DNA from: Isoetes taiwanensis
Taxonomy: Eukaryota > Streptophyta > Lycopodiopsida > Isoetales > Isoetaceae
Reading direction: 5' to 3'
Length of the DNA: 64,000 nucleotides
Assembly (NCBI GenBank): GCA_021234155.1
Contig: JAJEKV010000010.1
Span: 12,358,359-12,422,358 of the forward strand
Shown here: positions 12,338-43,953 of the stretch, in pieces
How positions within the stretch are numbered: the first letter of the stretch is position 1
Layout of the letters: each line of letters begins with the position of its first letter
Program-made: the position numbers and the translations under genes
The notes under the pieces: generated by a model
The model's input: the letters and a program-made list of their open reading frames with translations, nothing else
What the model was told of the DNA's origin: nothing
The model's database searches: none

Positions 12338-12654
12338 CATGTCTCCTGTAATTTCGTGTTCTTGCCCCATTTACGTAACTCCCAAGGTCAAGAAGTGGGA
12401 GGTTTTGTCTCAATAGGTTCGTGGGTGAGTATGCTGCCATTAACGAGGGGCGCATAGAGTTAAGTGACAAAGGCGATCGACGCGACGCGGACACATTGGA
12501 TAGGTAGGATAAAAGAGTTCAAGTTGAATTCTAGCGGCCGGAAAGTGGAAAGTATAACAATACGACGCGGCATATACCCCTTCCGATATGGCCAAAGAGC
12601 TAATCTCCACCAAAACAGCTTCCCAAAATTGCCCGCAAATGGTAACCACCTTTA
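12338..12654 (+). pseudogene. Unrecognised small gene, frameshifted
   Basis: A coding-like stretch on the plus strand starting at ATG 12338 (MSPVISCSCPIYVTPKVKKW). It continues after a frame change as EYAAINEGRIELSDKGD and after another as KEFKLNSSGRKVESITIRRG, ending near the palindrome at 12658. Each piece reads well only in its own frame, so I infer one gene of about 100 residues with at least two indels. No domain recognised. Its close coupling to the downstream palindrome matches the arrangement at the other genes of this block. Confidence 0.4.
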
Positions 12655-12657
12655 TCG

Positions 12658-12724
12658 GATCACACGACGCCGGGCTATCCGGTCGCCTACTTAACTGCGT
12701 GAGATAGTTTCGCATCGTGTGATC
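12658..12724. terminator. Intergenic palindrome P1 (TCACACGACGC family)
   Basis: GATCACACGACGC at the left and GCATCGTGTGATC at the right form a 13 bp stem with one mismatch around a ~41-base loop. First of about ten copies in this window. It lies just after the decayed gene at 12338-12654. A role as gene-end signal is inference from position. Confidence 0.6.
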
Positions 12725-12936
12725 TCCTTATCTTTTCATTTCTTTCATTGACACGTATTTACAAACAAATTTATTGTGCAGGTTTATGTTTATCAAACGT
12801 CGTGGATGTCATTCCGCCGAAAGTATTAGTAGTGTACTTGTCGTGTATCACATAGACATCGGAATTGTCCTTTTCCAAGGTATGGATGCCGTGACCTTGG
12901 GGTATAGGCATCCGGTTTTACGTGATATGATTATAA

Positions 12937-13640
12937 CGTAAAGGTCGAAATCGAGCTTGAGGCCGGTTGAATTGCCCCCTTTAAGTGAACTTTGTAAGCC
13001 ACTGACTAATGAGAACAATGTAATTGCAATGAAGAAATGCATGGTCGACGAGGTGCAAGCGGAATGTCCGAAAACGAGGCGTGAGGATGAGTTTCAAAAT
13101 CTTCACACCGCTTGAGGTATTTGCTAACATATTCCAGATGGCGCAGGAAGTTCGAAAAGCTCCGAAGACATATACGTGCTTTCTCCCCCCTGCCGATTTT
13201 GTGGATGACTTATTTTTGGTTCCGACTTGGGATGTTCGATTCCACGAATCATCCGGTCAACTAACAGAGGTCCGCGTAGTTAAGTCCTCCTTTAAGTTCA
13301 GATACTTTCTTCCAAAACAATATTTATACGTTAATTGTCAACTAGAACGAAGGAAAGCAAAAAAGAGGCCGCACAACTTTTTGGGAGCCGCTTGAGGACC
13401 ATAAATGTATTAATTCCGGATGCGGTGGATATTCGAGTATGGAGAGGGGAGGAAGTCATTTATACAGCCACCATGGAAAGCGAATGGCCATTATCAGAGC
13501 TAAGAGTGCTAATGGAGACAGAGGAGATTGCTGAAGACTTCCATTATTTCATTGATGGCATTAGGGTTGGTTACAGGCAAGAGGGAAATGTAAAGTTTAG
13601 TGAGTTCACATCAACAAGAAATTGTCTATCGCCTAGCTTT
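12937..13640 (+). pseudogene. Unrecognised gene, frameshifted
   Basis: Three consecutive coding-like pieces on the plus strand in different frames: one beginning SKSSLRPVELPPLSELCKPL (from about 12937), one with YTCFLPPADFVDDLFLVPTW (13130-13395) and one with INVLIPDAVDIRVWRGEEVI (13395-13640). Composition is even and repeat-free, unlike the flanking transposons. I infer one gene of roughly 230 residues broken by two indels. No family recognised. It sits between palindrome P1 and the histone-like gene. Confidence 0.45.
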
Positions 13641-13847
13641 TTGAATCTCGGTTTTTATTTGTGTTTTTGTCCGATGTTTTTTAGGGTTCCGTATTTTGTC
13701 CGATATTTTTTTTAGGGTTCCGCATAATTATTTAAAAAACGCTACCATCATATTTTACTTTAACTTCGCTTTTTACTATTTATCTCTTTCCAGTTGTCTA
13801 TTTTTGTCGTTTACGTCAGAGTATAAAGCGCCATCCACCGAGAAGCC

Positions 13848-14700
13848 ATGGCAAGAACTAAGCAAACCGCAAGGATCCATCCAGTGGTGTAAGGCCGTGA
13901 TTATATTAGTCCGCCTCCTTCATCCGAATATGAAGTCTCGATAGAGATTCTCCGGCCCCACCATGCCTAACAAGACCCGAAAAGAAATCCGCATGACAGA
14001 CGGCAGGAGAAGCAGCCGAGTAAGTAGGGATGTACACTCCGCCGGAGACGGGAGGATGAAAATGTGAGAGACCGCCAGCGAATATGACGCCGATTAATTA
14101 TTGGGCAGCCGCTTCTTCTTGCTCTTATCGCCTCCCGCCCTCCCGGTGGATGCCCAGAACCTTCAAATCAAAGGAGGAGGCCCAACGCCCAAAGGGAAAG
14201 GCAGAAATGAGGAGATCTACCGAAGAGTCGGCCGAGGAACAGCCCGCAAATGCCGGGGTGAGGAGACGGCCGGAAGAGTCGGCCGAACAAATGTGCTCCA
14301 AATGCCGGGGTGGGTGAGGGTAGTGGCCGAAGCGAAGACTAAGCCCGGCATTGGGGAAGAGCTTTCACGAGATTAAGAAGTATCGTAAGAGCACCGAGAT
14401 GGTCATTCCGCCTCCCATTTGCCGTGCTCGCGTGAAAGAGATTCTGCAAGAGTGTGGTGCGATACATCATACCGCCACAAAAATTCAAGCAACCGCCTAA
14501 ATGCTCTTCAAATGGCTTCGAAGCGGTTGGTGTCGGGCTGTTCGAGGACTCGCAGCTTTGCAAAGAATACATGCCAAGCGGGTGACTGTCATGCCCAAGG
14601 ACATGCGCCTCGTCTTACGCATAAGGGATCCGGAGTACTATGGTCAAAATTTTATGGCTGAATACAACAAGAAGAAAGACCCCCCAGAAAAAAGGCCGTG
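13848..14700 (+). pseudogene. Divergent histone H3-like gene, broken
   Basis: ATG at 13848 begins MARTKQTAR, the invariant start of histone H3. After about 450 bp that do not align to an H3 tail, the histone fold follows from about 14330. It shows IKKYRKSTEM (H3: IRRYQKSTEL), then VKEILQECGA in the alpha-1 region, NALQMAS and EAVGVGLFEDSQLC for alpha-2 (H3: GALQEASEA...GLFEDTNLC), and HAKRVTVMPKDMRLVLRIR for loop 2/alpha-3 (H3: HAKRVTIMPKDIQLARRIR). At least three frame changes occur and no single frame spans it. The C-terminus runs ~20 residues past the usual GERA end, to a TGA at 14698. Plant H3 genes are nearly invariant, so this divergence, the long insert and the extension point away from a recent host copy. 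A virus- or protist-type H3 is one explanation; a very old host pseudogene is another. The LINE at 14745 begins ~45 bp after the stop. Confidence 0.8.
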
Positions 14701-14744
14701 AAGTGCCTTTGTGTTTTTTTCATTTGTGTTTTTTTCATATGTTC

Positions 14745-15424
14745 CAGAATCAAAAGGGTTCACATATATTAATCATTCTGGAGCCAGTGTGATTGACTAT
14801 TGCATGGCAAGGAATCTTGACATTGTTCAAGACTTTTACATTGGAGAGAAGCTACCAGAATCCGACCATAAGCCCCTGCATCTAGTGCTGAAGCAAGTGC
14901 AAAAATCTGAAATCCAGCAGCCTATTTTTCACCCGAGATTGAAGATAGACTATAAAGCAAGTAAAAATTATAAAAAGAGGATTGAAGCACTCCTCGAACA
15001 TGTCAATTGGACGGGAAATCTGAATACTGATGCAAGCTCTTTCTCTCATCTCATTCACCAAGCTGCAGGAGAGGTATTTGGATACACGAAGAAACCTGTA
15101 AAGAATAGACCATGTAATGCTTGGTGGGATGCAGAATGTCATGTTGCAAGAACGAAATTGCCGAGGAATTGTATTCACAAACCTGCATGGTACAAGAATT
15201 TGCTGAGGAATAAAAAGCGCGCATTTTACAGACAAAAGCAAATAGAGCTTAGTGAGCGGCTCAAAAAGAGCCCAAAAACCTTTTGGACATCGCTGAAGGG
15301 AAGATCAGAAAAGCATACTTTAAAAATAGAGGCATTGCTAAAATTGGTACATGATATCTATAATAAAGAGGGTGCAGATTGCATGCAAGTTTCACCACAC
15401 AAACGGATTTGTTTACAGAGATAG
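14745..15424 (+). pseudogene. LINE ORF2 part 1: endonuclease C-terminus and linker
   Basis: Reads ASVIDYCMARN then LPESDHKPLHLVLK, the SDH block that ends AP-type LINE endonucleases. The linker NRPCNAWWDAECHVARTK follows, then a basic stretch with YRQKQIELSERLKKSPKTFW. The catalytic N-terminal half of the endonuclease is absent. A frameshift near 15380-15420 separates it from the reverse transcriptase, which continues in another frame from about 15379. Confidence 0.85.
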
Positions 15425-17268
15425 AGGTAGGAGATATTATTGCTGATATGGAAAATAACAAAGCACAGGATCTAGAAGGGCTTTGTGTAGAATTGATCAA
15501 ATGGGGAGGGCAGAGGACGTTATCTTCTCTTACAAGATTGCTAAATGGTTGCATCAGACAAGGATTACCTGAAAACTGGAAGATGAACCGTGTCCACCCA
15601 ATCCATAAATCAGGGGACAAGAAAGATGCAAGCAATTACAGAACTATACTAATTGGGAGTGTTTTTGCCAAAATATTGGGCAGCTTATTGGAATGCAAAT
15701 TGAGCACATGGGCAGAGGCAAATAACAAGCGTTCCTTTTGTCAAGCAGGTTTTAGAAGAGGGCATAATACACTTGACCATGCTCTGACATTGCGTGTGCT
15801 CGTTGAGAGAGCTAAAAAGCCAAATAAGGTATTATATGTTGCATTTATAGATTTCGCCAAGGCATTTGATACTGTCCCACGAAGAGAACTAGGTGAAAGA
15901 ATGGCACAAATTGGAGTTCCAGTAGAGATGAGCAGCGCCATTTCACAGCTATATGCTGAAGTGCTTATCAAATTATCAGGTGATTTGGATACGGTAGTCA
16001 AGAATATCATAGGAGTGCGTCAGGGGTGCCCATTGTCTCCAACTTTGTTTGGCCTCTTCATAGAAGAATTGGAAGAATGGATGCGTGATCGCTCTTTGGC
16101 AGGAACAAAATTGGGTATGCATTTAATACAATCGTTATTGTATGCTGATGATGTGGTCTTGTTAGCAAACAAGAAGAAAGCATTGCAGGATCTCTTGGAC
16201 ATCTTGGAGTCCATTTGTGAGGAGAAGGCAATGCGAGTAAATACATCAAAATCAAAGATAATGGTCTTTGGAACAAGGGACAGGCCAGCATTTGTCTATC
16301 AGGGACAAGAACTAGAAACAGTGGAGAGCTATAAATACTTGGGGCTAGATTTCTCGGCAAAATATAATTGGAAGGAATGTATTAAGAGAAGAGTGACTGG
16401 AGGAAAATCTGCTCTATATAGTATGCTTGTAAAATGCTCAAAGGCATCACTTTCAGATTGGGGGCTCAAAAAGATCTTATATAAGACCTTAGCGCAACCG
16501 GTTTTGCTTTATGGAGCACCAATTTGGGGGCCAAGTATCTCATCTAAGCTTTGGGGACAGATTGAATCTGTGCAGAAAGTATTCATACGAGAGGAGTTAG
16601 GCATTAAGGCACATACACCATATGCAATAATGCTTGCAGAAACAGGGATGTTCCCACTTGAGCTTGAAGCATTATTTTAGGCAATCAATTTTGTCAACAG
16701 GGTTAAGAATCAAGCATCGGATCGCATATCATATCAAGCATTTGTGTCCACGGATCAGCAGGGATGGTTACATGATCTGAAGAATTGGGCAAGTAAATGG
16801 GGGGTAACTGATACGAATTGGCCAGGAAATAAGGAAGACACAAGGACACTGCTTGAGCAGCTTTCCATTGAACGTTTATGGGCAGTTCAGGGCAGCCGGC
16901 TAACACATTACATATCATGTGTAAATTCAATCAGTGAGTATAAGAGTCAAGACTATATAAATGCTAACATGCCAAAATATTTCAAGCAGGTCGTAGCCAG
17001 ATACAGGACGAGCTCACACAGACTTGCAATGGAGACAGGACGTTGGTATAAAATCCCGGTTGAGGAGAGGTTATGTAAAGTCTGTGAGTCTGATAGCATT
17101 GAGGATGAGCATCATGTTTTTACAGGCTGCCCCGCTTACAAGGAGTTAAGAGACAAGTTCGGCATTCAAGCATCTGATTTTAAATCTTTATTTCAGTTGT
17201 CATCTCTAACATTAGGTTCATATTTTAAGGCGGTAGATTCACACCGCTCTTTATTAGTGCAGTTGTAA
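15379..17268 (+). pseudogene. LINE reverse transcriptase with one internal stop
   Basis: Reverse transcriptase copying element RNA at the target site. Blocks in order: DMENNKAQDLEGLCVELIKW; NWKMNRVHPIHKSGDKKDAS; FIDFAKAFDTVPR; GVRQGCPLSPTLF; catalytic LLYADDVVLLANKK; SYKYLGLDF. A TAG at 16678, where a Trp codon would fit, interrupts the frame after LELEALF; the same frame then continues AINFVNRVK to the C-terminal zinc-type motif CKVCESDSIEDEHHVFTGC and stops at 17268. All catalytic residues of the palm are present, so decay is recent: one stop plus the upstream frameshift. The FAKAFDTVPR/YADD pattern and the C-terminal Cys-His box differ from the plant L1 at 58214-61388, so I place it in another LINE clade (Jockey/CR1/RTE-like range, not resolved). 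Confidence 0.93.
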
Positions 17269-17331
17269 ATTGCTTAAACTTGTACTTGGAAGCTCCATGG
17301 TCTTTCAAGGCCCAAAGTGAGCTTGACTAAT

Positions 17332-17356
17332 ACATTACATTACATTACATTACAAT
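17332..17356 (+). repeat. LINE 3' simple-repeat tail
   Basis: Tandem TACAT units (about four) follow the LINE 3' UTR where L1 elements have poly(A). Simple-repeat tails are known for several LINE clades and mark the 3' junction. Confidence 0.85.
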
Positions 17357-17429
17357 ATTCTTTAATGTAATGGCTTTATAAGCTTAATCTCTTAGTCCAT
17401 TTCTTTCTTTTTTTTAATGTTATACGTGA

Positions 17430-17498
17430 GGATCACACGACGCGCAGCAAGCATTGTGCTTTTTTGTTGCACATAGTAGTCTTCGCGTCGTGTGATCC
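17430..17498. terminator. Intergenic palindrome P2, perfect 15 bp stem
   Basis: GGATCACACGACGCG and CGCGTCGTGTGATCC are perfectly complementary around a ~39-base loop: the cleanest copy in the window. If the LINE at 14745-17356 is removed, it lies roughly 115 bp past the H3-like stop codon, the same spacing seen after the coiled-coil genes. It also precedes the gene at 17658 by 160 bp. Confidence 0.7.
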
Positions 17499-17531
17499 AA
17501 CCCTAACCCTAACCCTAATCCTAACCCTAAA
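17499..17531 (+). repeat. Short telomere-type repeat tract
   Basis: About five CCCTAA units (one CCTAAT variant) directly after palindrome P2 and ~130 bp before an ATG. Too short for a telomere; telo-box-like tracts occur near plant promoters, so this may be a promoter element or a trace of end repair. Confidence 0.7.
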
Positions 17532-17657
17532 ATGTACGGACAAATCTCCCCACAACGGCTGTGTCTCCTTTCATAATCGACAACGGCTACTTGAGTTCAG
17601 AAGTGACAGCGCCTTACCGCTCCTAAACATCTTCTTGCTTTCGTCGTCTGCTTCGCC

Positions 17658-17957
17658 ATGGATTGTTATGTGAAGTTCCTGGAATGGTATGCATCCGCCC
17701 CTCATGACAACGAGGAAGTTGCGCCGACTGCGATTTATCCGTTCTATTGCAAGGAGTTGGACATCATGGCAAACAGTAGCGAGCTTGGATGCTATCGCGA
17801 GGTTGCCTTAGCTTTCACCCGGACCGCTTGGTCTCAGCGCACGTCCTTTGCAGATGTCCCTGGCTCGTGGATTCCAAAACCAGCTCTAGATGAGGCGGCT
17901 TCCCATTTGCAAATAGCGAAGATGTTTTTCAAGAATCACAAGGCCCCCAAAAATTAA
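17658..17957 (+). CDS. Unrecognised 99-residue protein
   Basis: Intact open frame from ATG 17658 to TAA 17957, beginning MDCYVKFLEWYASAPHDNEE. Acidic N-terminal half, aromatic-rich, with an amphipathic C-terminal stretch (ALDEAASHLQIAKMFFKNHK). No signal peptide or membrane segment, no domain recognised. The start follows a pyrimidine-rich leader (CTTCTTGCTTTCGTCGTCTG) like the leaders of the genes at 37497-40591. Part of the palindrome-associated block; one of the few intact frames there, so it may be real. It has no palindrome within 100 bp after its stop. Confidence 0.5.
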   Translation: MDCYVKFLEWYASAPHDNEEVAPTAIYPFYCKELDIMANSSELGCYREVALAFTRTAWSQRTSFADVPGSWIPKPALDEAASHLQIAKMFFKNHKAPKN

Positions 17958-19165
17958 CTCGCATTCATAATCATTATGGAAACTAGTATAATGATGGTTT
18001 TTAATACATGCAACTCGTAATGTCAATGAAAACTAGATGACTTTCATAGTTTTGTAATATCACTACTAGTTTGATCATAGTTCTTATACTAATTATATGT
18101 CTTACACTAGTTTCTTAAAATTATTGCTAGTTTAGGAGGTGATTTTTGAGCCTACATTGTCAATATTATAATCTAAGATGATTTTACATACTAGTTAGCA
18201 TGATCAGATACATGGTTTTAACCTGGTTTCAATCCTCTCAAGTTTTTCTTATTAGTTCAAAAACCACATTTGATTTTGGAAGTGTGTTATATGTTTTTGG
18301 CACATGCTTATTTATAATGCATGTTAGTAGTCTATTATATTGTTTTACATTGTTGTCTTTTTGATATATTTGTTTCAATCCTTAAAGTCATTATAGACTT
18401 TGAGCATAATTTCTTACATTAACTTGTAATTCCAACTATTATATCTATTTTTGCACTACTTTTAGAGTATGATCCTTTTTAAACTCAAACAATATTCATA
18501 TCCATTGTACCATTTAGCAACAAGGCAATAGATGTTCAGATAATTAACTTCACTTGAGCAGCAACTTAGAACAAAACATGTTTCACTTTCATGCAATAAA
18601 ATAGAGTTACGTGAAATGCAAAAACTAGCTTGAATTCAAAGCATGATCTAATTGCATCTATTCACATTATATTAACCACCATGGGAATGGAGCCGACTTG
18701 TCTTTGGCTGAATGTAGATGCCTAGTTAGCAGTTCTTATTTATCCTCTCAAATCCGGTCGGATCATCAAGAAATCATACAAGCTCTATGGATAACAATTT
18801 TTCTTGGCACCATTTCGTTCGACCAATTGATAAGGACCTATATGTAGCCAACACAAGCATCAATGGTCATATGCCCTTCAATAAATTTTTCACGAAAATG
18901 CTAGGTCAAATATGCATGAGCATTCATTCATCAAGAAATACACTAGATCAAAGATTCATGACGACGCGATCATTGACCTTCAAGTCTAGAATCGCATCAC
19001 GAATATATTACCTCTGTTATTTTTTCAAACCAATAGAAAAACAAGCCATTCAATATAGTGGTGACAACTCACAAGTTTTTTTTTTTTTTTAACCATTAGA
19101 AATATGAGCCATTTAATATACTGGTGACATAATCGACATTAAAGAATATTATTATGTTCAACGCT
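17958..19165. other. AT-rich spacer
   Basis: No gene supported. ACTAGTTT/CTAGT-rich AT sequence. A 101-codon frame at 18787-19092 ends in a poly(T) run and shows no features. Confidence 0.5.
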
Positions 19166-19168
19166 AGG

Positions 19169-22100
19169 CTAGTACTGTCGCATCAGGTGCCTTCTGGCAT
19201 GCTCTGAGGTCACGACGTCTAGATTGGAATGAGACATCGCGATGGGGCAAGTTTGGAATCGGTGCCTGGAAAGGGTTTTTTTTTGTTATCCTCCTCTTAG
19301 AACCCTCGAGGAAACCCTGCACGCAAGCTCTCAACCAATTCAAAAGCAGGGAGGGCTGCCAAAACATAAACCCTACAGATTTCGTAGGGTTTAAGTATCG
19401 GGGTACCAAAACTGCTCCATCTGCTAATCCCACCGTTCAAATGGTAGCTCATGTCCCAAAAAACATCTTGGAAAAGAAAAAATGGCCATCCACCATACGG
19501 ATGTGCGAAACCCCAAATTTCCCCCTTTCTGACGTAGGCTCACGACGGGAAATGAAGTGTTCCTCCAGTTCGGTAGCTCCAGCGAGCTGGGTTTTGACTT
19601 TGTGTTTGAATTCAAAGCAACCAAATTGCTCCAGAGACTAACTATCATGTCTAACCGAGCCAAACTCGACTCGACACGGGCAACTAGTGGACCTTCTGCT
19701 CATGAACCCACTCCCAGCCTAGTGCGCTTATATCGTCTATACGTAGCATGTACTCAGCAATTCGGACTTTTGGTCGATCCTATACTCCTCAAAACTGTGT
19801 TCCAGGGTAACTCTGCCACTCTGGATGCAACCGCACGCTAGTACTGTCGCATCAGGTGCCTTCTGGCATGCTCTGAGGTCACGACGTCTAGCTTGGAATG
19901 AGACAATCGCGATGCACGTTTGGAATCGGTGTCTGGAAAGGGTTTTTTTTGTTATCCTCCTCTTCAAACCCTCGAGGAAACCCTGCTGCAAGCTCTCAAC
20001 CAATTCAAAGGCAGGGAGGGCTGCCAAAACATAAACCCTACAGATTTCGTAGGGTTTAAGTATCGTGGGTGCCAAAACTGCTCCATCTGCTAATCCCACC
20101 GTTCAAATGGTAGTTCATGTCCCAAGAAATATCTTGGAAAAGAAAAAAATGGCCATCCACCATACGGATGTGCCAAACCCCAAATTTCCCCCTTTCTGAC
20201 GTAGGCGCACAACGAGAAATGAAATGTTCCTCCAGTTCGGCAGCTCCAGCGAGCTTGAAATGGGGTTTTGACTTTGTGTTTGAATTCGAAGCAACCAATT
20301 TGCTCCAGAGACTAACTATCATGTCTAACAGAGCCAAACTCGACTCGACACGGGCAACTAGTGGACCTTCTGCTCATGAACCCACTCCCAGCCTAGTGCG
20401 CTTATATCGTCTAGACGTAGCATGTACTCAGCAATTCGGACTTTTGGTCGATCTTATACTCCTCAAAATTGTGTTCCAGGGTAACTCTGCCACTCTGGAT
20501 GCAACCGCACGCTAGTACTGTCGCATCAGGTGCCTTCTGGCATGCTCTGAGGTCACGACGTCTAGCTTGGAATGAGACATCGCGATGGGGCAAGTTTGGA
20601 ATCGGTGCCTGGAAAGAGTTTTTTTTGTTATCTTTTTCTTCAAACCCTCGAGGAAACCCTGCATGCAAGCTCTCAACCAATTCAAAGGCAGGGAGGGCTG
20701 CCAAAACATAAACCCTACAGATTTCGTAGGGTTTAAGTATCGGGGTACCAAAACTGCTCCATCTGCTAATCCCACCGTTCAAATGGTAGCTCATGCCCCA
20801 AGAAACATCTTGGAAAAGAAAAAAATGGTCATCCACCATACGGATGGGCCAAACCCCAAATTTCCCCCTTTCTGACGTAGGCGCACGACGGGAAAGGAAG
20901 TGTTGCTCCAGTTCGGCAGCTCCAGCGAGCTTGAAATGGGGGTTTGACTTTGTGTTTGAATTCGAAGCAACCAATTTGCTCCAGAGACTAACTATCATAT
21001 CTAACAGAGCCAAACTCGACTCGACACGGGCAACTAGTGGACCTTCTGCTCATGAACCCACTTCCAGCCTAGTGCGCTTATATCGTCTAGACGTATCATG
21101 TACTCAGCAATTCAGACCTTTGGTCGATCTTATAATCCTCAAAATTGTGTTCTAGAGTAACTCTGCCACTCTGGATGTAACCGCACGCTAGTACTGTCGC
21201 ATCAGGTGCCTTCTGGCATGCTCTGAGGTCACGACGTCTAACTTGGAATGAGACATCGCGATGGGGCAAGTTTGGAATCGGTGCCTGGAAAGGGTTTTTT
21301 TTGTTATCCTTCTCTTCGAATCCTCGAGGAAACCCTGCACGCAAGCTCTCAACCAATTCAAAGGCAGGGAGGGCTGCCAAAACATAAACCCTACAGATTT
21401 CGTAGGGTTTAAGTATCGGGGTACCAAAACTGCTCTATCTGCTAATCCCACCGTTCAAATGGTAGCTCATGCCCCAAGAAACATCTTGGAAAAGAAAAAA
21501 TGGCCATCCACCATACGGATGTGCGAAACCCCAAATTTCCCCCTTTCTGACGTAGGCTCACGACGGGAAATGAAGTGTTCCTCCAGTTCGGTAGCTCCAG
21601 CGAGCTTGAAATGGGGTTTTGACTTTGTGTTTGAATTCAAAGCAACCTATTTGCTCCAAAGACTAACTATCATATCTAACCGAGCCAAACTCGACTCGAC
21701 ACGGGCAACTAGTGGACCTTCTGCTCATGAACCCACTCCCAGCCTAGTGCGCTTATATCGTCTATACATAGCATGTACTCAGCAATTCGGACTTTTGGTT
21801 GATCCTATACTCCTCAAAATTGTGTTCCAGGGTAACTCTGCCAATCTGGATGCAACCGCACGCTAGTACTGTCGCATCAGGTGCCTTCTGGCATGCTCTG
21901 AGGTCACGACGTCTAGCTTGGAATGAGACATCGCGATGCAAGTTTGGAATCGGTGTTTTGAAAGGGTTTTTTTTGTTATCCTCCTCTTCAAACCCTCGAG
22001 GAAACCCTGCACGCAAGCTCTCAACCAATTCAAAGGCAGGGAGAGCTGCCAAAACATAAACCCTACAGATTTCATAGAGTTTAAGTATCGGGATACCAAA

Positions 22101-22433
22101 ACTGATCCATCTGCTAATCCCACCGTTCAAATGGTAGCTCATGTCCCAAGAAATGTCTTGGAAAAGAAAAAAATGGCCATCCACCATACGGATGTGCCAA
22201 ACCCCAAATTTCCCCCTTTCTGACGTAGGCGCACGACGGGAAATGAAGTGTTCCTCCAGTTCGGCAGCTCCAGCGAGCTTGAAATGGGGTTTTGACTTTG
22301 TGCTTGAATTCAAAGCAACCAATTTGCTTCAGAGACTAACTATCATGTCTAACAGAGCCAAACTCGACTCGACACGGACAACTAGTGGAAATTCTGCTCA
22401 TGAACCCACTCCCAGCCTAGTGCGCTTATATCG
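19169..22433. repeat. Tandem repeat array, ~673 bp unit, ~4.8 copies
   Basis: Units begin with AGTACTGTCGCATCAGGTGC at 19171, 19840, 20514, 21190 and 21865 (periods 669, 674, 676, 675). The last copy is cut at about 22433 within CGCTTATATCGT. Copies are mostly well over 90% alike by eye. Each unit has a 10 bp perfect hairpin TAAACCCTAC/GTAGGGTTTA with a 7-base loop (decayed in the last unit) and the string CCCTCGAGGAAACCCTGC. Repeated minus-strand frames of 80-200 codons are broken by small indels that differ between copies, so I do not call genes. Confidence 0.95.
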
Positions 22434-22475
22434 TACTTGGGGTACTTGTTTCCTCAATACCGACGATATGCAGCT

Positions 22476-22874
22476 TCAGGGCCGGTGTGTGCTGATCATC
22501 TCTAGTGACCTACATGTTTCAAAAGTGGGAATACCTGCCTGTCCACCGCGCAACAATTCCTCAGTAGAAGTCTGTGTGGACATGTCTACCCTATCCACAT
22601 GCGTAGGCACTGTGACATGCACTAGTGGTGGCACACTAATGTTACCTGCTAACTCTACCACTAGCTCTAAGAGTTGTACCCAGCTTTCCAAAGTCAATTG
22701 AATGGATGTCCCTGTGGTAGAGGTGTTGGACTGGATTGTTTGAATCCTAGCAAGGACTGCTGGCGGCAGGCATTGAATCTGAGCATCTACATTAACCAAA
22801 GTCGTATCTAGAACCATATCTGAAGCTGGCAGTGCATCTGGTTGCACAAAAATAGGCATTTGGGGTCTAAACAA
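22476..22874 (-). other. Open frame of 132 codons, unrecognised
   Basis: Minus-strand frame starting MFRPQMPIFVQPDALPASDM, with a helical stretch (IQLTLESWVQLLELVVELAG). It directly follows the end of the tandem array. No stop for 399 bp in AT-balanced sequence is mildly unusual. It could be a fragment of a larger retroelement polyprotein or a chance frame; no conserved motif supports either. Confidence 0.3.
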
Positions 22875-24029: not shown

Positions 24030-24055
24030 GGATACGATCCCAAAATAGCAACGTC

Positions 24056-31415: not shown

Positions 31416-31492
31416 AGGACATCTTATGGTAGCAAAAGTATAGGCCCAGATCACCTCACATGCATATGATTAAATTTATTTGGATGCGCCCA

Positions 31493-34555: not shown

Positions 34556-34758
34556 GTTTGTCTTCTTTTGTGTATGCAGGGTTTAGCGTGGCTGTTTGGA
34601 GGAGGGCTCTGGATTCGGAGCACAAGATGAAGATCAATGGAGAAGACAATTCAAACATGTTTCGTCTTTGGCAATTTCTTTGTTGTAATGTATTTTCACC
34701 CAATAAGGCTAGTCAGCATGAGGGTACAATATCTATTATGTTTTTGGACCTAGCATCG

Positions 34759-34845: not shown

Positions 34846-34909
34846 TTGCTATCTGTATGTACTTGTTTTGGTTATCAAGGAGATGCCCATGAGCAGCATT
34901 CAGCATCAG

Positions 34910-34945
34910 CATTCTTGTCCATGTCTAGCCGTAGTATTTCTAGAA
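34910..34945 (+). repeat. 36 bp unit tail, distal copy
   Basis: Identical to 34074-34109; the sequence diverges immediately after (ACATTTCATTTC). Confidence 0.9.
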
Positions 34946-36060: not shown

Positions 36061-36139
36061 GGTATCTTATTTCTCTTTGCCGTTTGCATTTGCTAGTTAT
36101 TGCATTCTGCTCGGCCAAACCGAAGATACACTGGAAACA

Positions 36140-36643
36140 ATGAAATCTTTAAGCCAAGGGGGGTCAGTTATGTGTGATGATGCTGATTATGACGTAGAAA
36201 TGGAGATAGATCTACAAGAAGAAGAGCAAGAATGTAGGAGTTTTAGCTTCGACGCACTGGCCTTGGGTGAACCAGAGGAGGGAGATGATTCTGAAGGTGA
36301 TGAGGATGGGGATGAGGATGAAAAGAAGTTGTCTAACATAACGCCAATTTTAGTGGAAGGCAAAGAATACCCATTGCTAAGTGATATACTGAGGAACCCG
36401 TCTTTGTTACGAATGTGTGCTAGGGAAGACGAGCTTATCAGTACCTTGGCCGAATGGGTAAACCTAGGCCTAGATTTTGAAGAGAATTTGGACAAAGAGA
36501 TGTTTGAAGTGTCTAATTATACCGGCAATGCTATAAAGCTTAAAGAAGCCTATGAGAGGCTGGAGTCTCGATTTGCTCAAGAGGAGGCGAATCTACCAAC
36601 GGAAGAAGAATTCCAGCGTCTCCGTGCAAAGCTGCCAACATGA
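36140..36643 (+). CDS. Acidic unrecognised protein, 167 residues
   Basis: First ATG in an open frame is 36140 (MKSLSQGGSVMCDDAD); stop TGA at 36641. A strongly acidic stretch (GDDSEGDEDGDEDEKK, residues ~57-72) separates an N-terminal region from a helical C-terminal half (LKEAYERLESRFAQEEANLP). No signal peptide or membrane segment. Acidic low-complexity plus helical parts fit a nuclear or nucleic-acid-associated protein, but no family is recognised. It lies directly upstream of another coding-like stretch (36653-37121), with no palindrome between, so the two may be one gene split by an indel or a short intron. Confidence 0.55.
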   Translation: MKSLSQGGSVMCDDADYDVEMEIDLQEEEQECRSFSFDALALGEPEEGDDSEGDEDGDEDEKKLSNITPILVEGKEYPLLSDILRNPSLLRMCAREDELISTLAEWVNLGLDFEENLDKEMFEVSNYTGNAIKLKEAYERLESRFAQEEANLPTEEEFQRLRAKLPT

Positions 36644-36652
36644 TCTATAGGT

Positions 36653-37121
36653 TTGGCAGGCCCTTCAGTCAATCGCGGCAGCATAAGCCTCATAGATGAG
36701 GAGAAATGTGAAGAACATAAGCTTGAGGGTTCTTATTTGTGGGAAGTAGATGATTTTTCTTGCCGACATGCACGCGGGGGACATGAAAGATTGAAGGACT
36801 CTACATTGTTACGATATATCTCAAGATTCGTTAATGGGGAGATAATCGTCTTCATTGAGAACTTTCAGGTCAAAAGGTGCAGAGTTTGTCTATTACATCC
36901 GTGCATTATGCATGTTCGGGAACCATTCCCAATTGGCATCAAACACTAAAAGGGTGATAGCAATTCGGCGGGATGTTGTGCTACAATATTTTGACGACCA
37001 AGCCGGTCTGCGGGCGAGCAATATGTTAAATTTTTTAGCTGCTGGCTTGACTCACCCAAGGTTGGAAGCTGGGGTCGATAACATGGAAGTCATTGCCTTG
37101 TTGGATCGGTCTTGGGATTGA
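36653..37121 (+). pseudogene. Unrecognised coding stretch, one frameshift
   Basis: Reads GSYLWEVDDFSCRHARGGHE and RFVNGEIIVFIENF in one frame, then shifts near 36860 to SKGAEFVYYIRALCMFGNHS and VVLQYFDDQAGLRASNML, stopping at 37121. The even coding character on both sides of the shift supports a single ~155-residue product. The CAG/GTC at the shift could alternatively be an artefact or small intron. No domain recognised. Together with 36140-36643 it would make ~330 residues. A decayed palindrome follows at 37256. Confidence 0.45.
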
Positions 37122-37255
37122 AAGAGCATGAAATTGACGACGAAGCTTGAAAAATTGGAAGTTATATATTTTCCAACTTTGTATCGGTGAAATTATTTAT
37201 GTACAGATTGTCCTTCCGAAATTCCTAATAAAAATTATTTTATTTGTATTTATTC

Positions 37256-37316
37256 ACATCACGCGAAATACATCGGTCGATTTTCTGTCATATCTAGGTT
37301 TTCGTGAGTGGTGATA
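37256..37316. terminator. Decayed intergenic palindrome
   Basis: ATCACGCGAAA at the left and TTTTCGTGAGTGGTGAT at the right keep most of the family stem. It lies ~135 bp after the stop at 37121. Confidence 0.4.
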
Positions 37317-37371
37317 TTTATCTCGAAGAAATAAAATATTATTGGAAAAAAACAATTAATTTATTTATTCC

Positions 37372-37424
37372 TCACACGACGCGAGAAGCAACTCGTGTGA
37401 CTCATGTTATAAATAGAAGACCGA
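37372..37424 (+). promoter_or_regulatory. Promoter with half-palindrome and TATA box
   Basis: TCACACGACGCGA begins at 37372 and pairs with TCGTGTGA at 37393-37400 (8 bp perfect stem). It precedes GTTATAAATAGAAGACC by ~10 bp; the ATG is at 37497. The same pair, CACACGACGCGA then TTATAAATAGAAGACC, recurs upstream of the next gene. Confidence 0.6.
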
Positions 37425-37496
37425 TGTCCACTCGACCTCCGACGCCTTCCGCCTTCATCATCTTCTACTTCCGCCCGCCTTCCACCTTCTACTCCG

Positions 37497-37877
37497 ATGG
37501 CATCATCATCTTGCTCTAGCAAGCGACCACGCCAAGATAGCACTCCCCAAAGCCAGTACGCGTGGACATCACCCTTGCAAAGGTGGTGATGAAGAGATTC
37601 AAGGAGATCCATGATGAAAACAACCGTCTCGTCGCCGAGAATATGGAGGCGGTCGACAGATTAGCCTTCACGAGGGAGCAACCGCACGAAGCGAGACATT
37701 GAGCTCATGGAAACATTAAAAGCCATGTACCAAGAGGCGACGAGCCGCAGGGCCGAGGCAGTTGAAACTGCTCACAGTATTTTGGAGGCCTTAGAAGATA
37801 TGGAGAAGAAGCTCCGAGCTGCGGAGGATGAGAACGCAGCCTTACGGCTTCAGCTGCAGGACATGAAAATCAGCTAG
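37497..37877 (+). pseudogene. Coiled-coil family gene, member 1 (two frameshifts)
   Basis: ATG 37497 begins MASSSCSSKRPRQDSTP. After a frame change it reads VVMKRFKEIHDENNRLVAEN and after another ERDIEL-type heptads ending ALEDMEKKLRAAEDENAALR. The stop is TAG 37875-37877. Intact it would be ~125 residues, almost entirely coiled coil after a Ser-rich start. It is a close paralogue of the next gene (38265), and more distantly of 39262 and 40121: all start MAS(S/T)S and have an L/V-V-x-M-K-R-x-K-E-like segment. Function unknown; a structural or DNA-associated role is only a guess. The palindrome at 37995 follows the stop by 118 bp. Confidence 0.6.
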
Positions 37878-37994
37878 AGGATCATGAAGATCCCTAGCCG
37901 TTGTATCTATCTATTTTTTGCTTCAAAGAAAAGTTTTCTCTATTTTTTGCTTCTATCTATCCTCTTGTTCCAATGTATGTTCTATTTTATTAAA

Positions 37995-38063
37995 AGATCA
38001 CACGACGCGAAATGCCTTGCTTGCAATTAGGTAGCAATCAATGGATTTCGCGTCATGTGATCT
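37995..38063. terminator. Intergenic palindrome P3
   Basis: AGATCACACGACGCGAAAT and ATTTCGCGTCATGTGATCT: 18 of 19 positions pair. The loop CTTGCAATTAGGTAGC... is almost the same as in the next copy, so the palindrome was duplicated with its gene. Confidence 0.75.
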
Positions 38064-38133
38064 CCATGCTGTTAAAAATTATCACACGAGCTTTCTCTGG
38101 AAGAAAAGACGTGAGAAGAAGTAACGGTCCTTT

Positions 38134-38190
38134 TTCCTCACACGACGCGACTCAAGCTACTACGAAATCCCTGTTATAAATAGAAGACCT
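38134..38190 (+). promoter_or_regulatory. Promoter of coiled-coil gene 2
   Basis: TCACACGACGCGACTCAAGC followed by GTTATAAATAGAAGACC. Parallel to 37372-37424. A further half-site ATCACACGAGC is at about 38081. Confidence 0.55.
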
Positions 38191-38264
38191 TCTATCTTGC
38201 CTTCGACCTCCGATCCTCTTCCGCCTTCCTTACGCTCATCTTTTCCATTCCCGCCTTCGCTCCG

Positions 38265-38629
38265 ATGGCATCTTCATCCTCCTCCAATGTTTATCGACCG
38301 CGCCCAGAGTTGCCGCGGACATCACCCCTTTTGCAAGTGGTGATGAAGAGATTCAAGGAGGTTCACGACGAAAAAACAGCCGCCTCCGTCGTAGAAAGAT
38401 CGAGGCGGTCGACAGGTTAGAATTCACGAGGGGGCTGCTGCATGAGCGAGACCTTGAGCTCGCGGCAACATTAACCAGGTACCGAGAGGCCAATAGCCGT
38501 AGGGTCGAGGCAGTTTTAACTGCACACAATATTTCGCAGGCGTTAGAAGATATGGAGAAGAAGCTTCGAGCTGCGGAGGATGAGAACGCAGCTTTACGGC
38601 TTCAGCTACAGGATCATGAAGATCCCTAG
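38265..38629 (+). pseudogene. Coiled-coil family gene, member 2 (frameshifted)
   Basis: ATG 38265 begins MASSSSSNVYRPRPELP and reaches VVMKRFKEVHDEK. One frame change then leads to KIEAVDRLEFTRGLLHERDL and the conserved end ALEDMEKKLRAAEDENAALR, stopping at TAG 38627-38629. The pair 37372-38063 and 38134-38781 (promoter, gene, palindrome) is a tandem duplication of ~0.75 kb. The frame breaks are in different places in the two copies, so both decayed after duplicating. Confidence 0.6.
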
Positions 38630-38712
38630 CCATTGTATATATATTTTTTGTTTCAAAGAAAAGTTTTCTCTATTTCTTGCTTCTATCTGTTCTCTTGTTT
38701 TGTTTTATTAAA

Positions 38713-38781
38713 AGATCACACGACGCGAAATGCCATGCTTGCAATTAGGTAGCAATCAATGGATTTCGCGTCGTATGATCT
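38713..38781. terminator. Intergenic palindrome P4
   Basis: AGATCACACGACGCGAAAT / ATTTCGCGTCGTATGATCT, 18 of 19 pairs; 84 bp after the stop of gene 2. Confidence 0.75.
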
Positions 38782-39162
38782 CCACAACGTACACCTCGTT
38801 GTATGTATAAATTCCTAATTTATTAATGGAAAACTATATGTAACACAAATATCTAGCTAGATTATGTGATAACTTGCAGGTAAATGCGAATTAGTCATAT
38901 CTAGGATTGGCATGTGGATGACAACGTCTATTCACATACGTGGCATGTGGATGACAACGTCATGCCAAGGACGTGGCATGCGCTGCCACAATAACACTGT
39001 CTTTTGTACGGCCTGCATACAGTACGGCTAGGATATGACGGATCCCATGATGCGAACATAGGCTACCGTTGCCTAATTGCATGCTATAATCTAAGCCTCG
39101 TGGGATTATTACACAACTTTATCGGTTTTCATAACCAGTAGATTCCAACGTATCTCTAGTTT

Positions 39163-39172
39163 CTATATAAAA
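39163..39172 (+). promoter_or_regulatory. TATA box of coiled-coil gene 3
   Basis: CTATATAAAACGTCGG about 95 bp before ATG 39262, with a pyrimidine-rich leader (CTCCTGTTCTCCCATC) between. Confidence 0.5.
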
Positions 39173-39261
39173 CGTCGGAGGCCTTTGTCTTCTCCTATCC
39201 GCCATCTCCTGTTCTACCACATCCGCCCTCAGCCATCTCTCCTGTTCTCCCATCACTTTCA

Positions 39262-39678
39262 ATGGCCTCCAGCTCCAGTTCCATCCCTGCCGAGATCTTG
39301 TCTCAAGTTCTGGTCAAGGAAATTCAGAACATTCGTGCTGAAGCGGAGGAACGGATCCGCCTTCTAAAAGAAAAGAATGATGAAGACGTCGCCAAGCTGG
39401 TTGCGGCAGAGGACAAGGCCGCCTTCTATAGGGAGGTGATTTTAGTGCGCGACAATCAGCGGGCTGCCTTAGACCGCGAATTGCGCGCCACGAGATATAA
39501 CCTCCAAGAGAGGCTTAGGGCCGCAATCGAAGCGGGAGAGGCTGCCCGAGCTCAACTCGATGAGCGGGAAGATAAGGTTGCGGAATATGAGAACGTGGTT
39601 GCGGGGCAGGCAATCATGTTGGAGGAGCAGAAAAAAATTATCACTGCCCTCCAGGAAGAGCTTGCCCGGCGATCATAG
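39262..39678 (+). CDS. Coiled-coil protein, family member 3 (intact)
   Basis: ATG 39262 to TAG 39678, 138 residues. A Ser-rich start (MASSSSSIPAEILSQVLVKE) is followed by an almost continuous Glu/Arg/Ala-rich coiled coil (for example EERIRLLKEKNDEDVAKLVA and LDEREDKVAEYENVVAGQAI) to the end. No membrane segment, no globular domain. The start has TATA and leader upstream. The start motif and heptads link it to genes 1, 2 and 4. The palindrome at 39828 lies 150 bp downstream. Highly charged coiled coils of this size are common, so function cannot be inferred. Being intact while its neighbours are broken makes it the best candidate for an expressed product in this block. Confidence 0.7.
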   Translation: MASSSSSIPAEILSQVLVKEIQNIRAEAEERIRLLKEKNDEDVAKLVAAEDKAAFYREVILVRDNQRAALDRELRATRYNLQERLRAAIEAGEAARAQLDEREDKVAEYENVVAGQAIMLEEQKKIITALQEELARRS

Positions 39679-39827
39679 GCATCGGGCTCCTCCTAGAGGG
39701 GCCCGTTTTTTTTTTAATGTTTGTAATGGTTTTATTTCTCAATGGGAAAAGTTTTTGACAAATGTGCCGAATATTACGTTTCCTATTTTTAATTTTCAAT
39801 ATCCGTGGTAGAGAGAATGACAAGACA

Positions 39828-39892
39828 GATCACACGAAGCGAAACCCTTCATAGGGTTTTAAAGCTCGTGTGCAGATTTCGCGTGGTGTGAT
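39828..39892. terminator. Intergenic palindrome P5
   Basis: GATCACACGAAGCGAAA and TTTCGCGTGGTGTGAT, stem with two mismatches. A second, inner palindrome AAACCCTTCATAGGGTTTT lies in its left part. Confidence 0.7.
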
Positions 39893-40120
39893 ACAGTGTA
39901 GTTAGAATAGTTATTAATGTGTTCCAGCGGACAGTACCATTAATGTGTTCTAGCGGACAACCGACAGAATCCGCTCGACACGTGCGACAGCAGCCGACTG
40001 TGTTTAATATGTTCAAGTGCTAATATGTATAAATTGAGGTCCTTGCATTGTGTTCCTTCCGCCGGTTAGAGTCTTTGCTCCTCACTTCTATAATCTTAAC
40101 GTCCCTCCCATTTGTCATCT

Positions 40121-40591
40121 ATGGCCTCCACATCCTCAACCGCTGATAAGGGAAAACGCAAGAGGATAGAACTCCCTTCTGACATAATGTTGGGTGTTCT
40201 AATGAAGAGGTTGAAGGAGCAAGATGATCTTCTAAAGGAAAACGCCATTACAATTCAGCAGAAAGAAGAAGAGAATGAATTCAACCTTCTCATGCTTCGT
40301 AGCCAGGAGAGGCAAATCAGGCGGCTGAATAGAAGGCTGGACAGGATGACATGCCCCAACAACTGCATTGAGGTGGTTACGACGGCAACGAGGTTGCTAA
40401 TTCAGGCAGAAGAACACGTTGTGCTATTGGGACAGGAGCAGGACATGTACAAAGAGATGGTGGACAGATTGGAGGAACGTTTGGATAGGGTGATTGCTCG
40501 CTTGAGGAGAAGAGATGAAGACGAAGACGAGGATGGAGCTGATGATGATGATGAAGATAATGAAGAAGAGCTCGCACTGGAGCAACAATGA
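40121..40591 (+). CDS. Coiled-coil protein, family member 4, acidic tail (intact)
   Basis: ATG 40121 to TGA 40591, 156 residues. MASTSSTADKGKRKRIELPS starts it; KGKRKR could be a nuclear localisation signal. VLMKRLKEQDDLLKENA matches the family segment. A long coiled coil (ERQIRRLNRRLDRM, EMVDRLEERLDRVIARLRRR) follows, and the C-terminus is very acidic (DEDEDEDGADDDDEDNEEEL). A basic start, coiled coil and acidic tail fit a chromatin- or nucleic-acid-associated protein, but that is inference. A TATA-like TATGTATAAATT lies ~100 bp upstream. The palindrome region at 40674-40818 follows. Confidence 0.7.
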   Translation: MASTSSTADKGKRKRIELPSDIMLGVLMKRLKEQDDLLKENAITIQQKEEENEFNLLMLRSQERQIRRLNRRLDRMTCPNNCIEVVTTATRLLIQAEEHVVLLGQEQDMYKEMVDRLEERLDRVIARLRRRDEDEDEDGADDDDEDNEEELALEQQ

Positions 40592-40673
40592 GTCGTTGTA
40601 TTTTGTTTTTCAATGTAACATCTTTCACAACTTTAATCAAAAGTAACCTTTTTTTATTATTATCTTGTAAAGC

Positions 40674-40818
40674 TTCACACGACGCCTTGAAGCCACATAA
40701 ATGCAAGCAATAGCGAACTCCTTTATTGCTCACATATGATACAAATAAGATCACACGCGACGCCGAAGCTTCTGATTGTGCAAACAAGGTTGGAGGCAAG
40801 TACTTGGCGTCGTGTGAA
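40674..40818. terminator. Palindrome P6 between convergent genes
   Basis: A half-site CACACGACGCC (from 40674) and a full palindrome (40749-40818) with TCACACGCGACGCC/GGCGTCGTGTGA, one bulged base. It lies between the plus-strand gene ending 40591 and the minus-strand pseudogene ending near 40888. Confidence 0.65.
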
Positions 40819-40887
40819 CATGCTACACATTACAAGTATACTTTACCGATTCTTTGTCTCTTAGATCTCCACCATAATTGCGATGCT

Positions 40888-42783
40888 AGTGGGGCCCTAG
40901 AATTTTGCCAAGCAACTTTCCGCTTTCTCTTGACATTATGCCAATGGTGTTTACGACTTCTGGGTTGCTCCTTAAAGCGACCTTCTTGTCGTATTTAGCC
41001 ATCGCCCTTCTATAAAACCACTCTGTCATCCGTCTTAGAGGGTTGGTTCCCACATTTCCACCCCCTCTTTGAGTGTTACGATGAAAGGCTATTTTAGCTT
41101 GTTTATGCGACTTCTCCATGCCTTGTGCACTCCCACCTTTGCTAGGCTTCCATACTTCCTAAAAACCAAGGTGCATGAGCCCAAAAGATGTGCAAGTAGT
41201 GCGTGACTTCACTCTCTCCCCATGCGTCTATGAAAGCTTTAATAAATTTGTTATTCGCTTGCACGAACATTTCTGCATCTTCTCTTGTGAGGTCCATTCT
41301 TTGAATGTATGGGAACAATTCGCACAATGTATCCCATGCTTTTTTTCCTCAATGCCGAACGAACGCCATCTCAGGCGGTCCTGCTCGCATCAACCAGCAA
41401 TTTTCCAAATTCATAGACCTTTTCTCCCATCCGTTTCCGCTCAAAGTCTCTCTAAGCGTCGAGCTTTCACCCCTCAATTGACACCTTCACGAGGCACACT
41501 TGTTCTTCCCGCCGTTTCTCATCGAGCTCTAATCTTACATTGCCACCATGCAAACCTCGCTTCGATAGAATATGTTCAATTCTAATGAATTCCTTCCTCT
41601 CTTCTCTTCTTGTCCGAAATGTTCCACACGAATCTGCTGACTCAAAAATATCATCTTGTCGATGATTCTCACAAAGCCGTGCAAAGTGCGAGACATGAAC
41701 CCTCTCTAATGGAATGGGGAACATGCCATGGAACTTGGGATCTTCTTCTCCTCTATTAGGAGCATTTGCTTGGTTAAGGGACAAGGTTGAAAATGTCTTC
41801 CCAAGATTTGACTTCCTTGCATGATTGCAAAGATGCACAACTTTTGCATGTTCCTTGTTCTCCTCCACTTATGTTGTACATTGCTTTCTCGGTTTTTAAA
41901 TCGGGCGCCAAGTGAAAAATTACTTTGTAAGATCCATAGTGATCTACTTGCAATTTTTCCCTCCATCGAATCTAGATATTAGACTCCTGGATGTCGGTTT
42001 GATTGAACACCCATTTCAATACCTCGTGGGTTTCTTTTCTCAACTTTAAATAGACCTAACCACCGGGTGTCATCTTGATTGACATGAGAACCATTTTTCT
42101 AAGCGCTTCTTCTCCTCGTCCCCGTCACCTCTACATCTTTTTATTATTCTTGTTGGCTCTTTGATTTAGCATGTGCAATTGCATTCTCAATTGCTCTATT
42201 CATGATGACAACGGATACCCTCTCATACTTCTCAAACTTGGTCAGTTCCATTTCATCCAATTTTATGCAAACTTCAATCTCACCATTAGTTTTACGCAAA
42301 TCAGCAAGTCATAATATTTGACAAGGAATTGTAAGAGAGTAACGTGTCAACCCAAAGATTATTATGTTCATTCATTCCAACTATATCACAACAATCCTTG
42401 CCATTCTTATCTTTTATGGCTATGGCAGGACCAGCACATTCAACGTGGTGCATCTCTCCTAATATGGCATACACCATCTTTGTCCTAGTAACCCTTGTAT
42501 TCTCAACAATTTGTGGACGTGGAGCGAATACTTTTTTTGTGCCCATTCTTTTCAACGCTTCGTGGAATGGCTTGAATAGAGAACGGTAACCAAGCCTACT
42601 GATGCCTACATCATCACAAACAGTCTGTACATCTGTCCAGATGTCGACACTTTTTGAGCCTGCAAGACGCAACATGTCGAGGTCTAAGTTCTTATTTTTT
42701 AGACCTCTTTTTTTGCGATTGAAGACTGGAGCATATTCGTGAGTCAGTTGGATCCTTATCCACACATCATTTGGAGCTTCCAT
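40888..42783 (-). pseudogene. Large unrecognised minus-strand gene, decayed
   Basis: Reading down from ATG 42783 (MEAPNDVWIRIQLTHEYAPV), the first ~160 codons are open. They include LGYRSLFKPFHEALKRMGTK and MVYAILGEMHHVECAGPAIA. Coding character resumes in other frames: LRKTNGEIEVCIKLDEMELT and KFEKYERVSVVIMNRAIENA near 42200-42290, then ELFPYIQRMDLTREDAEMFV with THYLHIFWAHAPWFLGSMEA at 41142-41330, and SHKQAKIAFHRNTQRGGGNV near 41080. Many stops and shifts lie between. I infer one protein of ~600 residues. The C-terminal pattern (helical segment, HxFWAHAP, then a K/R-rich HRNTQRGGG) reminds me of uncharacterised large proteins linked to mobile or viral DNA, but I cannot name it. A transposase or viral enzyme are both possible. 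Confidence 0.5.
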
Positions 42784-42790
42784 ACCGCGT

Positions 42791-42857
42791 GGATCGCACG
42801 GCGCGAAATGAACGTGTACAATTTGTATGCCCCAGCACAATTCGCTTCGTGTGAGCC
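42791..42857. terminator. Intergenic palindrome P7
   Basis: GGATCGCACGGCGCGAAAT and AATTCGCTTCGTGTGAGCC, about 14 of 18 pairs. It sits 8 bp upstream of the ATG of the minus-strand pseudogene. A decayed copy is within the segmental duplication at about 45185-45235. Confidence 0.6.
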
Positions 42858-43452
42858 GAACGTTCGTACTAACCTCGTTTTTGAAATTTGCAACGTGCAT
42901 ATGGAAATCGAAAAGTCCATTCTCCTACAATCCATGCTTTTATACATAAGCAAATTCAAAATTCAATTGTAGGGGGGGAAGCTTTGTATTGGGATGAAGT
43001 AAAGATCCCTGTTCTTAACTTTTAAAAGCTTGTCGCGGCGCCTCGAACGCGAAAGTCGATACAAAGCTTCAACCTACACATTCAAATTTTGAAATGTAGA
43101 AGGCGGGGAAGCTTGTATGGCCATGGCCTCTAAAATGAAAATAGCGCAAAGACAAGAATCGGTGATGCTTTGCTTGGTATCGACAAACCAAGAGACACCG
43201 TCATGAGTTGCTTGGTATGCTATAATGCAAGTGGCTTTTTAGAAGCGCCACGTGTTGCATCAATCATCGACAACCAACCAGTATTAAATACATATGGCGC
43301 CATAAATGTGCGATCCCCCTTATTCCGGGAGAATATTCCAAGCAAATCTGACGGGAAAAAAGGAGCGAAAATATGACGTGGAATGGCATTTTGAGACCCC
43401 AAATCCCCAAGGAGCGGAAATATGACGTGGAATGGCTGATAGGAGGCCATTT
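42796..43452. repeat. Segmental duplication, copy 1
   Basis: Shares long stretches with 45183-45700, including CGTGCATATGGAAATCGAAA, AAGAGACACCGTCATGAGTT and AATATTCCAAGCAAATCTG. It contains palindrome P7 at its left end and a ~30 bp internal repeat of GAAATATGACGTGGAATGG (43363 and 43418). Confidence 0.85.
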
Positions 43453-43562
43453 TAGTTCATAAAACATAATATAACTTGGAATGATACATATTTTATATGC
43501 AAATGGGAGACTATTGATGAGGGACTTGGTGTTATTATCTATTGACAACAAACAAGAAAGTG

Positions 43563-43628
43563 GATCACACCATGCAAATTTAGTATATTCCAACCTTTTA
43601 GCTTATACAAAATTCGCTTGGTGTGATC
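43563..43628. terminator. Intergenic palindrome P8
   Basis: GATCACACCATGCAAATT and AATTCGCTTGGTGTGATC; diverged core but the ends are complementary. Confidence 0.55.
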
Positions 43629-43893
43629 TTTTTGGAAAAAGATGACTTCCTATAGTAAAATTACTTTGATTATCTTTTAATAAAAGAAATATATATGTGT
43701 CTTATTTGAAGTTAAGTGTGGATATGTGACGTGCTCATTTATTGATAAAGTGTTTGGTTTTTGAAAAAGGCTAATAACTTTATGTACTACTAGAGTTGGT
43801 AAAGTATTTTAGATGCAAATGGGATGCTTGATGTGATCCTTCTTAAAAAAAGATATGCTCTTTGAAAAGGACTAATAACTTTATGCACTTAGG

Positions 43894-43953
43894 GTGATGC
43901 GAATTTAGTGTGTTCCATTTTTGTTGCATATGTACTATTCGCTTGGTGTGATC
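43894..43953. terminator. Partial palindrome P9
   Basis: TGATGCGAATTTAGTGTGTT at the left, TATTCGCTTGGTGTGATCC at the right; the left end is shortened. The loop shares TTTAGTGTGTTCC with P8's TTTAGTATATTCC, so the two are related. Confidence 0.5.

Follow-up and report, generated by a model that had tools for sequence, protein, structure and literature searches.

Gene cassettes of integrons carry one attC hairpin site per gene, in which conserved outer arms enclose a variable interior. The same arrangement of one hairpin per gene, conserved outer arms, and variable interiors was found in the DNA analysed here, a stretch of 64,000 nucleotides of contig JAJEKV010000010.1 (hereafter the window), where an initial annotation had proposed that three gene blocks (12.3-14.7, 17.4-18.0, and 36.1-43.95 kb) joined by a palindrome might be an endogenised multi-gene invader. 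These blocks, about 11 kb in total, are tentatively read here as the decayed remains of a multi-gene mobile DNA element, in one or several copies and built of hairpin-ended modules, in a eukaryotic, probably plant, genome, plant origin being suggested by the promoters and by the initial annotation. Compared with integron cassettes, no tyrosine integrase is known at this locus, the promoters are eukaryotic, and the enzyme would be of RAG1 type.

Other described systems come from viruses and transposons. According to the available portion of one report, transcripts of Mimiviridae and pithovirus end at hairpins, with the palindrome soon after the stop codon as observed here (PMC4402537); however, the sequence is not conserved between those hairpins, whereas the outer arms in the window are 79% identical on average. 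Mimivirus loops are described as short, up to 5 bases (PMC8557863, available portion), in contrast to the 31-37 bases, including an inner stem, that lie inside the arms here. The same portion describes a palindromic promoter motif of Medusavirus, likewise repeated beside genes of a histone-encoding virus, but with another sequence and placed upstream of genes, and no 3′ hairpins were found in that study. The transposase clade CMCT is characterized, in the accessible parts of PMC12730594 and PMC4411706, by elements with mostly CA..TG ends and by a 2-5 bp target-site duplication as a mark of membership, and fungal elements of this kind can carry cargo genes (TET/JBP; PMC12730594). The locus resembles these CMCT elements in a RAG1/Transib-like core present in structural models, in the DD[E/D] residues with C(2)C and H(3-4)H between the second D and the last acid, and in a CAC..GTG motif comparable to their 5′-CA..TG-3′ termini. 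It differs in having no Pfam match at the cut-off, no RAG1 match by sequence, and no element ends or target duplications found, as well as in its per-gene palindromes, which those parts of the two sources do not mention.

The palindrome and the genes it follows

The palindrome is 65-71 bp long, with 17-base arms (GATCACACGACGCGAAA) around the interior, and it begins with CAC and ends with GTG. Eight strong and three weaker inverted pairs were detected at 12.66, 17.43, and 37.25-43.95 kb, all within the blocks, in agreement with the palindrome shared between genes that had been described initially. The strong ones occupy 12658-12724 (a 33-base interior), 17431-17497, 37996-38062, 38714-38780, 39828-39893, 40749-40819, 42792-42856 (8 bases upstream of a transposase ATG at 42783), and 43563-43628 (with the variant arm GATCACACCAAGCGAAT), and the weak ones 37252-37316, 39041-39107 (no gene directly before it), and 43888-43953 (kin of 43563-43628, interior included); outside the gene units described below, no strand applies to them. 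TATTTAT occurs on both sides of 37252-37316 (region 37240-37324), as a target duplication would give. With a matrix trained on the eight strong palindromes, all 11 exceeded the best of 100 shuffled windows (12.0), and the next-best site in the window, at 31449, scored 5.7, within the null. By a plain count over both arms, 10 of the 11 had at most 10 mismatches, compared with 11 in the best of 60 shuffles, and the palindrome at 43888, with 12, fell within the null. The stem TCACACGACGCGAAA matched 22 times at up to three mismatches (0.70 expected in shuffled sequence), including five matches that are not palindrome arms (13968, 19538, 20881, 21556, and 22229, three mismatches each). The clustering within the blocks is partly circular, since the blocks were partly picked by their palindromes.

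The statement that the palindrome occurs almost nowhere else also stood: alignment revealed one extra, decayed palindrome at about 45.17-45.24 kb, and no further copy was detected in the rest of the window. The decayed copy could be detected because parts of 42806-43455 are duplicated, in diverged form, at 45181-45691 (no strand assigned). The duplicated stretch is that upstream of the transposase, the gene body of which was not found beside the second copy. A tandem array of units of about 675 bp (19159-22586) contains four units holding a stem match with three mismatches, and no palindrome.

For the genes with stops at 37877, 38629, 39678, and 40591, the palindrome starts 118, 84, 149, and 157 bp downstream, respectively; the last of these palindromes (40749-40819) also ends 66 bp from the stop (40886-40888) of the convergent transposase gene, taken at the end of its last homologous piece. 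The distance between stop and palindrome is 66-157 bp in these five genes, where the transcript ends are putative. If a long interspersed nuclear element (LINE) at about 14.7-17.35 kb is set aside, the palindrome at 17431 would lie 3′ of a histone H3 gene.

The arrangement is seen whole in two tandem paralogues on the plus strand. Module 1 (37365-38066) comprises a half-site at 37370, a TATA box, a broken coiled-coil gene (ATG 37497, stop 37877), and the palindrome 37996-38062, and module 2 (38131-38784) comprises a half-site at 38136, a TATA box, a broken gene (ATG 38265, stop 38629), and the palindrome 38714-38780, each half-site being single and upstream of the TATA box. The modules are 75.5% identical (BLAST, gaps counted); over ungapped columns, identity was 88% in promoter and leader, 86% in the open reading frame (ORF), 92% in the 3′ untranslated region, and 96% in the palindrome. 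The identity disappears, within a few bases of the motif at either end, beyond the TTCC/TCACACG junction on the left and beyond GTGATCTCCA on the right. As the likeness ends at the motif on both sides, the copied unit consists of motif, promoter, gene, and palindrome. Two intact plus-strand coiled-coil genes follow, an ORF of 138 amino acids at 39262-39678 with a TATA box at -98 (39262-39893 including its palindrome 39828-39893) and an ORF of 156 amino acids at 40121-40591 with a TATA box at -93 (40121-40819 including the palindrome 40749-40819, which is also 3′ of the convergent transposase gene). All four consecutive coiled-coil genes start with ATGGC(A/C)TC, each with a CT-rich leader and, about 89-98 bases upstream, a TATA box.

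Each of the eight strong palindromes folds into a single long hairpin (z from -1.5 to -7.8, below -3 in seven). The interiors are no more alike than shuffled sequence, except in the pairs 37996/38714, copied with the module, and 43563/43888. These interiors nevertheless tend to self-pair (Fisher p 0.001 over seven independent strong palindromes; single values 0.017-0.375). Pairing kept in unrelated interiors is expected of a hairpin working as a hairpin, and not of copies of a miniature inverted-repeat transposable element (MITE), which are alike along their whole length, or of a mere pair of binding sites; the pattern is suggestive and not proof.

The transposase, the histone H3, and other genes

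A broken RAG1/Transib-like (CMCT) transposase gene was identified at 40889-42783 on the minus strand. Its relatives comprise 92 proteins (P0001-P0092), of which one has a named organism, Klebsormidium nitens. Foldseek comparison of the models of two relatives (P0070 and P0017), rather than of the broken window copy, indicated a RAG1/Transib-like fold (E 6e-10), with TM-scores of 0.42/0.40 for the best match. The relatives carry DD[E/D], CxxC, and H-x4-H: in a set of 30, D367 is present in 23 of 24 ungapped rows, C484 in 29 of 30, and D464, C487, H536, H541, and E or D at 548 in every one. The window pieces keep both D, the CxxC, and the second H, and the first H falls inside a frameshift. With DD[E/D], C(2)C and H(3-4)H, and the predicted RAG1/Transib core fold, the gene can be assigned to the CMCT clade as far as the models of its relatives indicate. 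Pfam, which was given 30 stretches (the window holds 68 open stretches of at least 110 amino acids), returned no match for it at the cut-off, and the family has no Pfam model. Apart from the H3 and LINE pieces it is the sole protein that could be placed, and its modelled fold gives the only family assignment that bears on the kind of element. The relatives appear to carry a conserved intron (after THYM), which the window copy lacks, and would therefore look like chromosomal eukaryotic genes.

The divergent histone H3 noted initially was recovered at 13848-14701 on the plus strand as a broken gene that keeps the N-terminus MARTKQTAR and bears the C-terminal extension DPEYYGQNFMAEYNKKK. Four pieces, colinear in three frames (MARTKQTAR at 13848, FHEIKKYRKSTEMVI at 14339-14497, GLFEDSQLC at 14535, and IHAKRVTVMPKDMRLVLRIR at 14567-14698), track H3 from MARTKQTAR to HAKRVTVMPKDMRLVLRIR; the tail is long and the C-terminus extended. 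H3 was scored piecewise, with no whole-length score: the piece at 14567-14698 matched Pfam Histone with E 1.1e-4 and 22.9 bits (below the cut-off of 26.4) and H3 in PDB with E 7e-4, and the piece at 14339-14497 matched H3 in PDB with E 0.43. A canonical H3 query of IMG/VR returned no H3, so that no viral H3 was available for comparison, and the gene may be viral, host, or cargo in origin.

The remaining genes of the blocks, all on the plus strand, include a broken gene, seen as two open stretches that overlap (13033-13715), and an intact ORF of 99 amino acids (17658-17957), neither of a recognised family, as well as an intact acidic ORF of 167 amino acids (36140-36643), for which no homologue was found and whose coding-like reading seems to continue, broken, to about 37122. 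Upstream of the 99-amino-acid ORF, five AACCCT (telomere-like) repeats occupy 17499-17530, from two bases past the palindrome 17431-17497. The compactness initially described for the blocks held in part: several genes are without visible introns, but several are broken, and a LINE (RVT_1 E 1e-34) lies between H3 and the 17.43-kb palindrome. LINE pieces with endonuclease-like, reverse transcriptase, and zf-RVT domains were found at 7085-7618, 15367-16677, and 58833-61233. An intact ORF of 241 amino acids with a membrane anchor (51503-52228), which we take to resemble a plant LEA2/NDR1-type protein, gave a single weak Pfam match, of a different kind.

Origin of the blocks

The anatomy, with one motif, several genes without visible introns, and hairpins after stops, fits the proposed multi-gene invader and speaks for one kind of multi-gene element, and all blocks may derive from one such element. 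The genes of this element would have been modules of a TCACACGACGCG half-site, a TATA box, a short leader, an ORF, and a 65-71 bp hairpin, as in modules 1 and 2, and, besides a divergent H3 and a small family of coiled-coil proteins, the element would have encoded a transposase of RAG1/Transib type (CMCT clade). The transposase could have moved it by acting at CAC..GTG ends inside the motif, with CACACGACGCG as a candidate DNA end. The palindrome, placed as it is after five stops and at the borders of the copied unit, may act as a 3′-end hairpin (terminator or processing signal) of the element's transcripts, and the one at 40.75 kb would be common to the convergent genes. The proposal draws as well on the fold predicted for the transposase relatives and on the decay seen in the genes.

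Several observations count against it. No palindrome follows the genes at 13.1 kb and 17658, the gene at 36140 is followed by a weak one, and the palindromes at 39041 and 42792 are not placed after a stop. A TATA box lies within 260 bases of only five of the eight start codons examined. The array contains a single transposase gene, which may be a separate, later insertion, and no RAG1 chain was recovered from sequence by the profile, so that the RAG1 link depends on structures predicted for relatives, whose TM-scores are modest. The blocks lie apart, with LINEs and other repeats between them, so that their single origin is putative. Neither a convincing target-site duplication nor a single pair of outer ends was found in the palindrome flanks examined; GATC flanks several palindromes on both sides, but belongs to the arms.

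An endogenised large DNA virus, with compact viral genes, a viral H3, transcript-ending hairpins, and a captured transposase, is an unlikely though serious alternative. Compact genes with 3′ hairpins and a transposase copy without the intron inferred in its relatives would suit it, and giant viruses are known to have histones as well as palindromic motifs and hairpins at 3′ ends (PMC8557863 and PMC4402537, available portions). Endogenised giant viruses have been reported in Physcomitrium patens, and methylation enriched on viral genes in Klebsormidium nitens (PMC12344493, available portion). However, no viral hallmark (capsid, A32 ATPase, or polymerase B) was present in the 30 stretches given to Pfam, a part of the ORFs, and only about 11 kb of the window is block. 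Short exact patterns, which have low sensitivity, retrieved nothing related to the palindrome, the H3 piece, the transposase family, or the 99-amino-acid ORF from IMG/VR; these negatives are weak, given that the canonical H3 control was also empty, and a GTDB scan, likewise of low sensitivity, gave no relative. The best viral fold match had E 0.03, and the TATA boxes and CT-rich leaders resemble host polymerase II promoters. The origin from a nucleocytoplasmic large DNA virus suggested by the initial annotation gained no support from these results, and a match to a transposon family, which it had named, beside a genome-wide spread of the palindrome, as telling against such an origin, was obtained for one gene, the transposase at 40889-42783, the sole protein placed by fold.

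Somewhat less probable still is a family of short foldback repeats, driven by a CMCT transposase, that inserted into the 3′ ends of ordinary host genes and pseudogenes. Host-like promoters, a fitting transposase between two palindromes, CAC..GTG ends, the relatedness of 43563 and 43888 including the interior, and the TATTTAT flanks of 37252 agree with this explanation. In contrast, the strong interiors are unrelated yet tend to self-pair, no target-site duplication appears bar the GATC of the arms, no copy was detected elsewhere in the window save the decayed one at 45.2 kb, and the duplicated unit keeps promoter, gene, and palindrome together. A eukaryotic gene-cassette system, with single-gene modules swapped at hairpin sites by a RAG1-like enzyme as integron cassettes are at attC, is highly improbable: conserved outer arms, a variable self-pairing interior, one site after a gene, and unit borders at the motif recall it, but only one duplicated module pair was seen, its 5′ border is a half-site and not a full site, and no excised or rearranged copies were seen.

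Significance

In the literature searched, no description was found in which a divergent histone and hairpins behind individual genes accompany a transposase of RAG1 type. It is a long shot that a cassette or viral system existed here in which a RAG1-like enzyme acted at gene-ending hairpins and single-gene modules, H3 among them, were gained, duplicated, and lost as units; such a system, in seed-free plants or their viruses, would parallel integrons with a RAG-type enzyme. Through the transposase family, the predicted RAG1/Transib fold is extended to a group that lacks a Pfam model and counts one member from the alga Klebsormidium nitens. As a ready marker, the 67-bp palindrome could lead to fuller copies, and hence distinguish virus from transposon. 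Should the array prove to be a single element, it would be a DNA element of several genes, probably from plants, that combines a RAG1-type transposase with a divergent histone and a hairpin for each gene.
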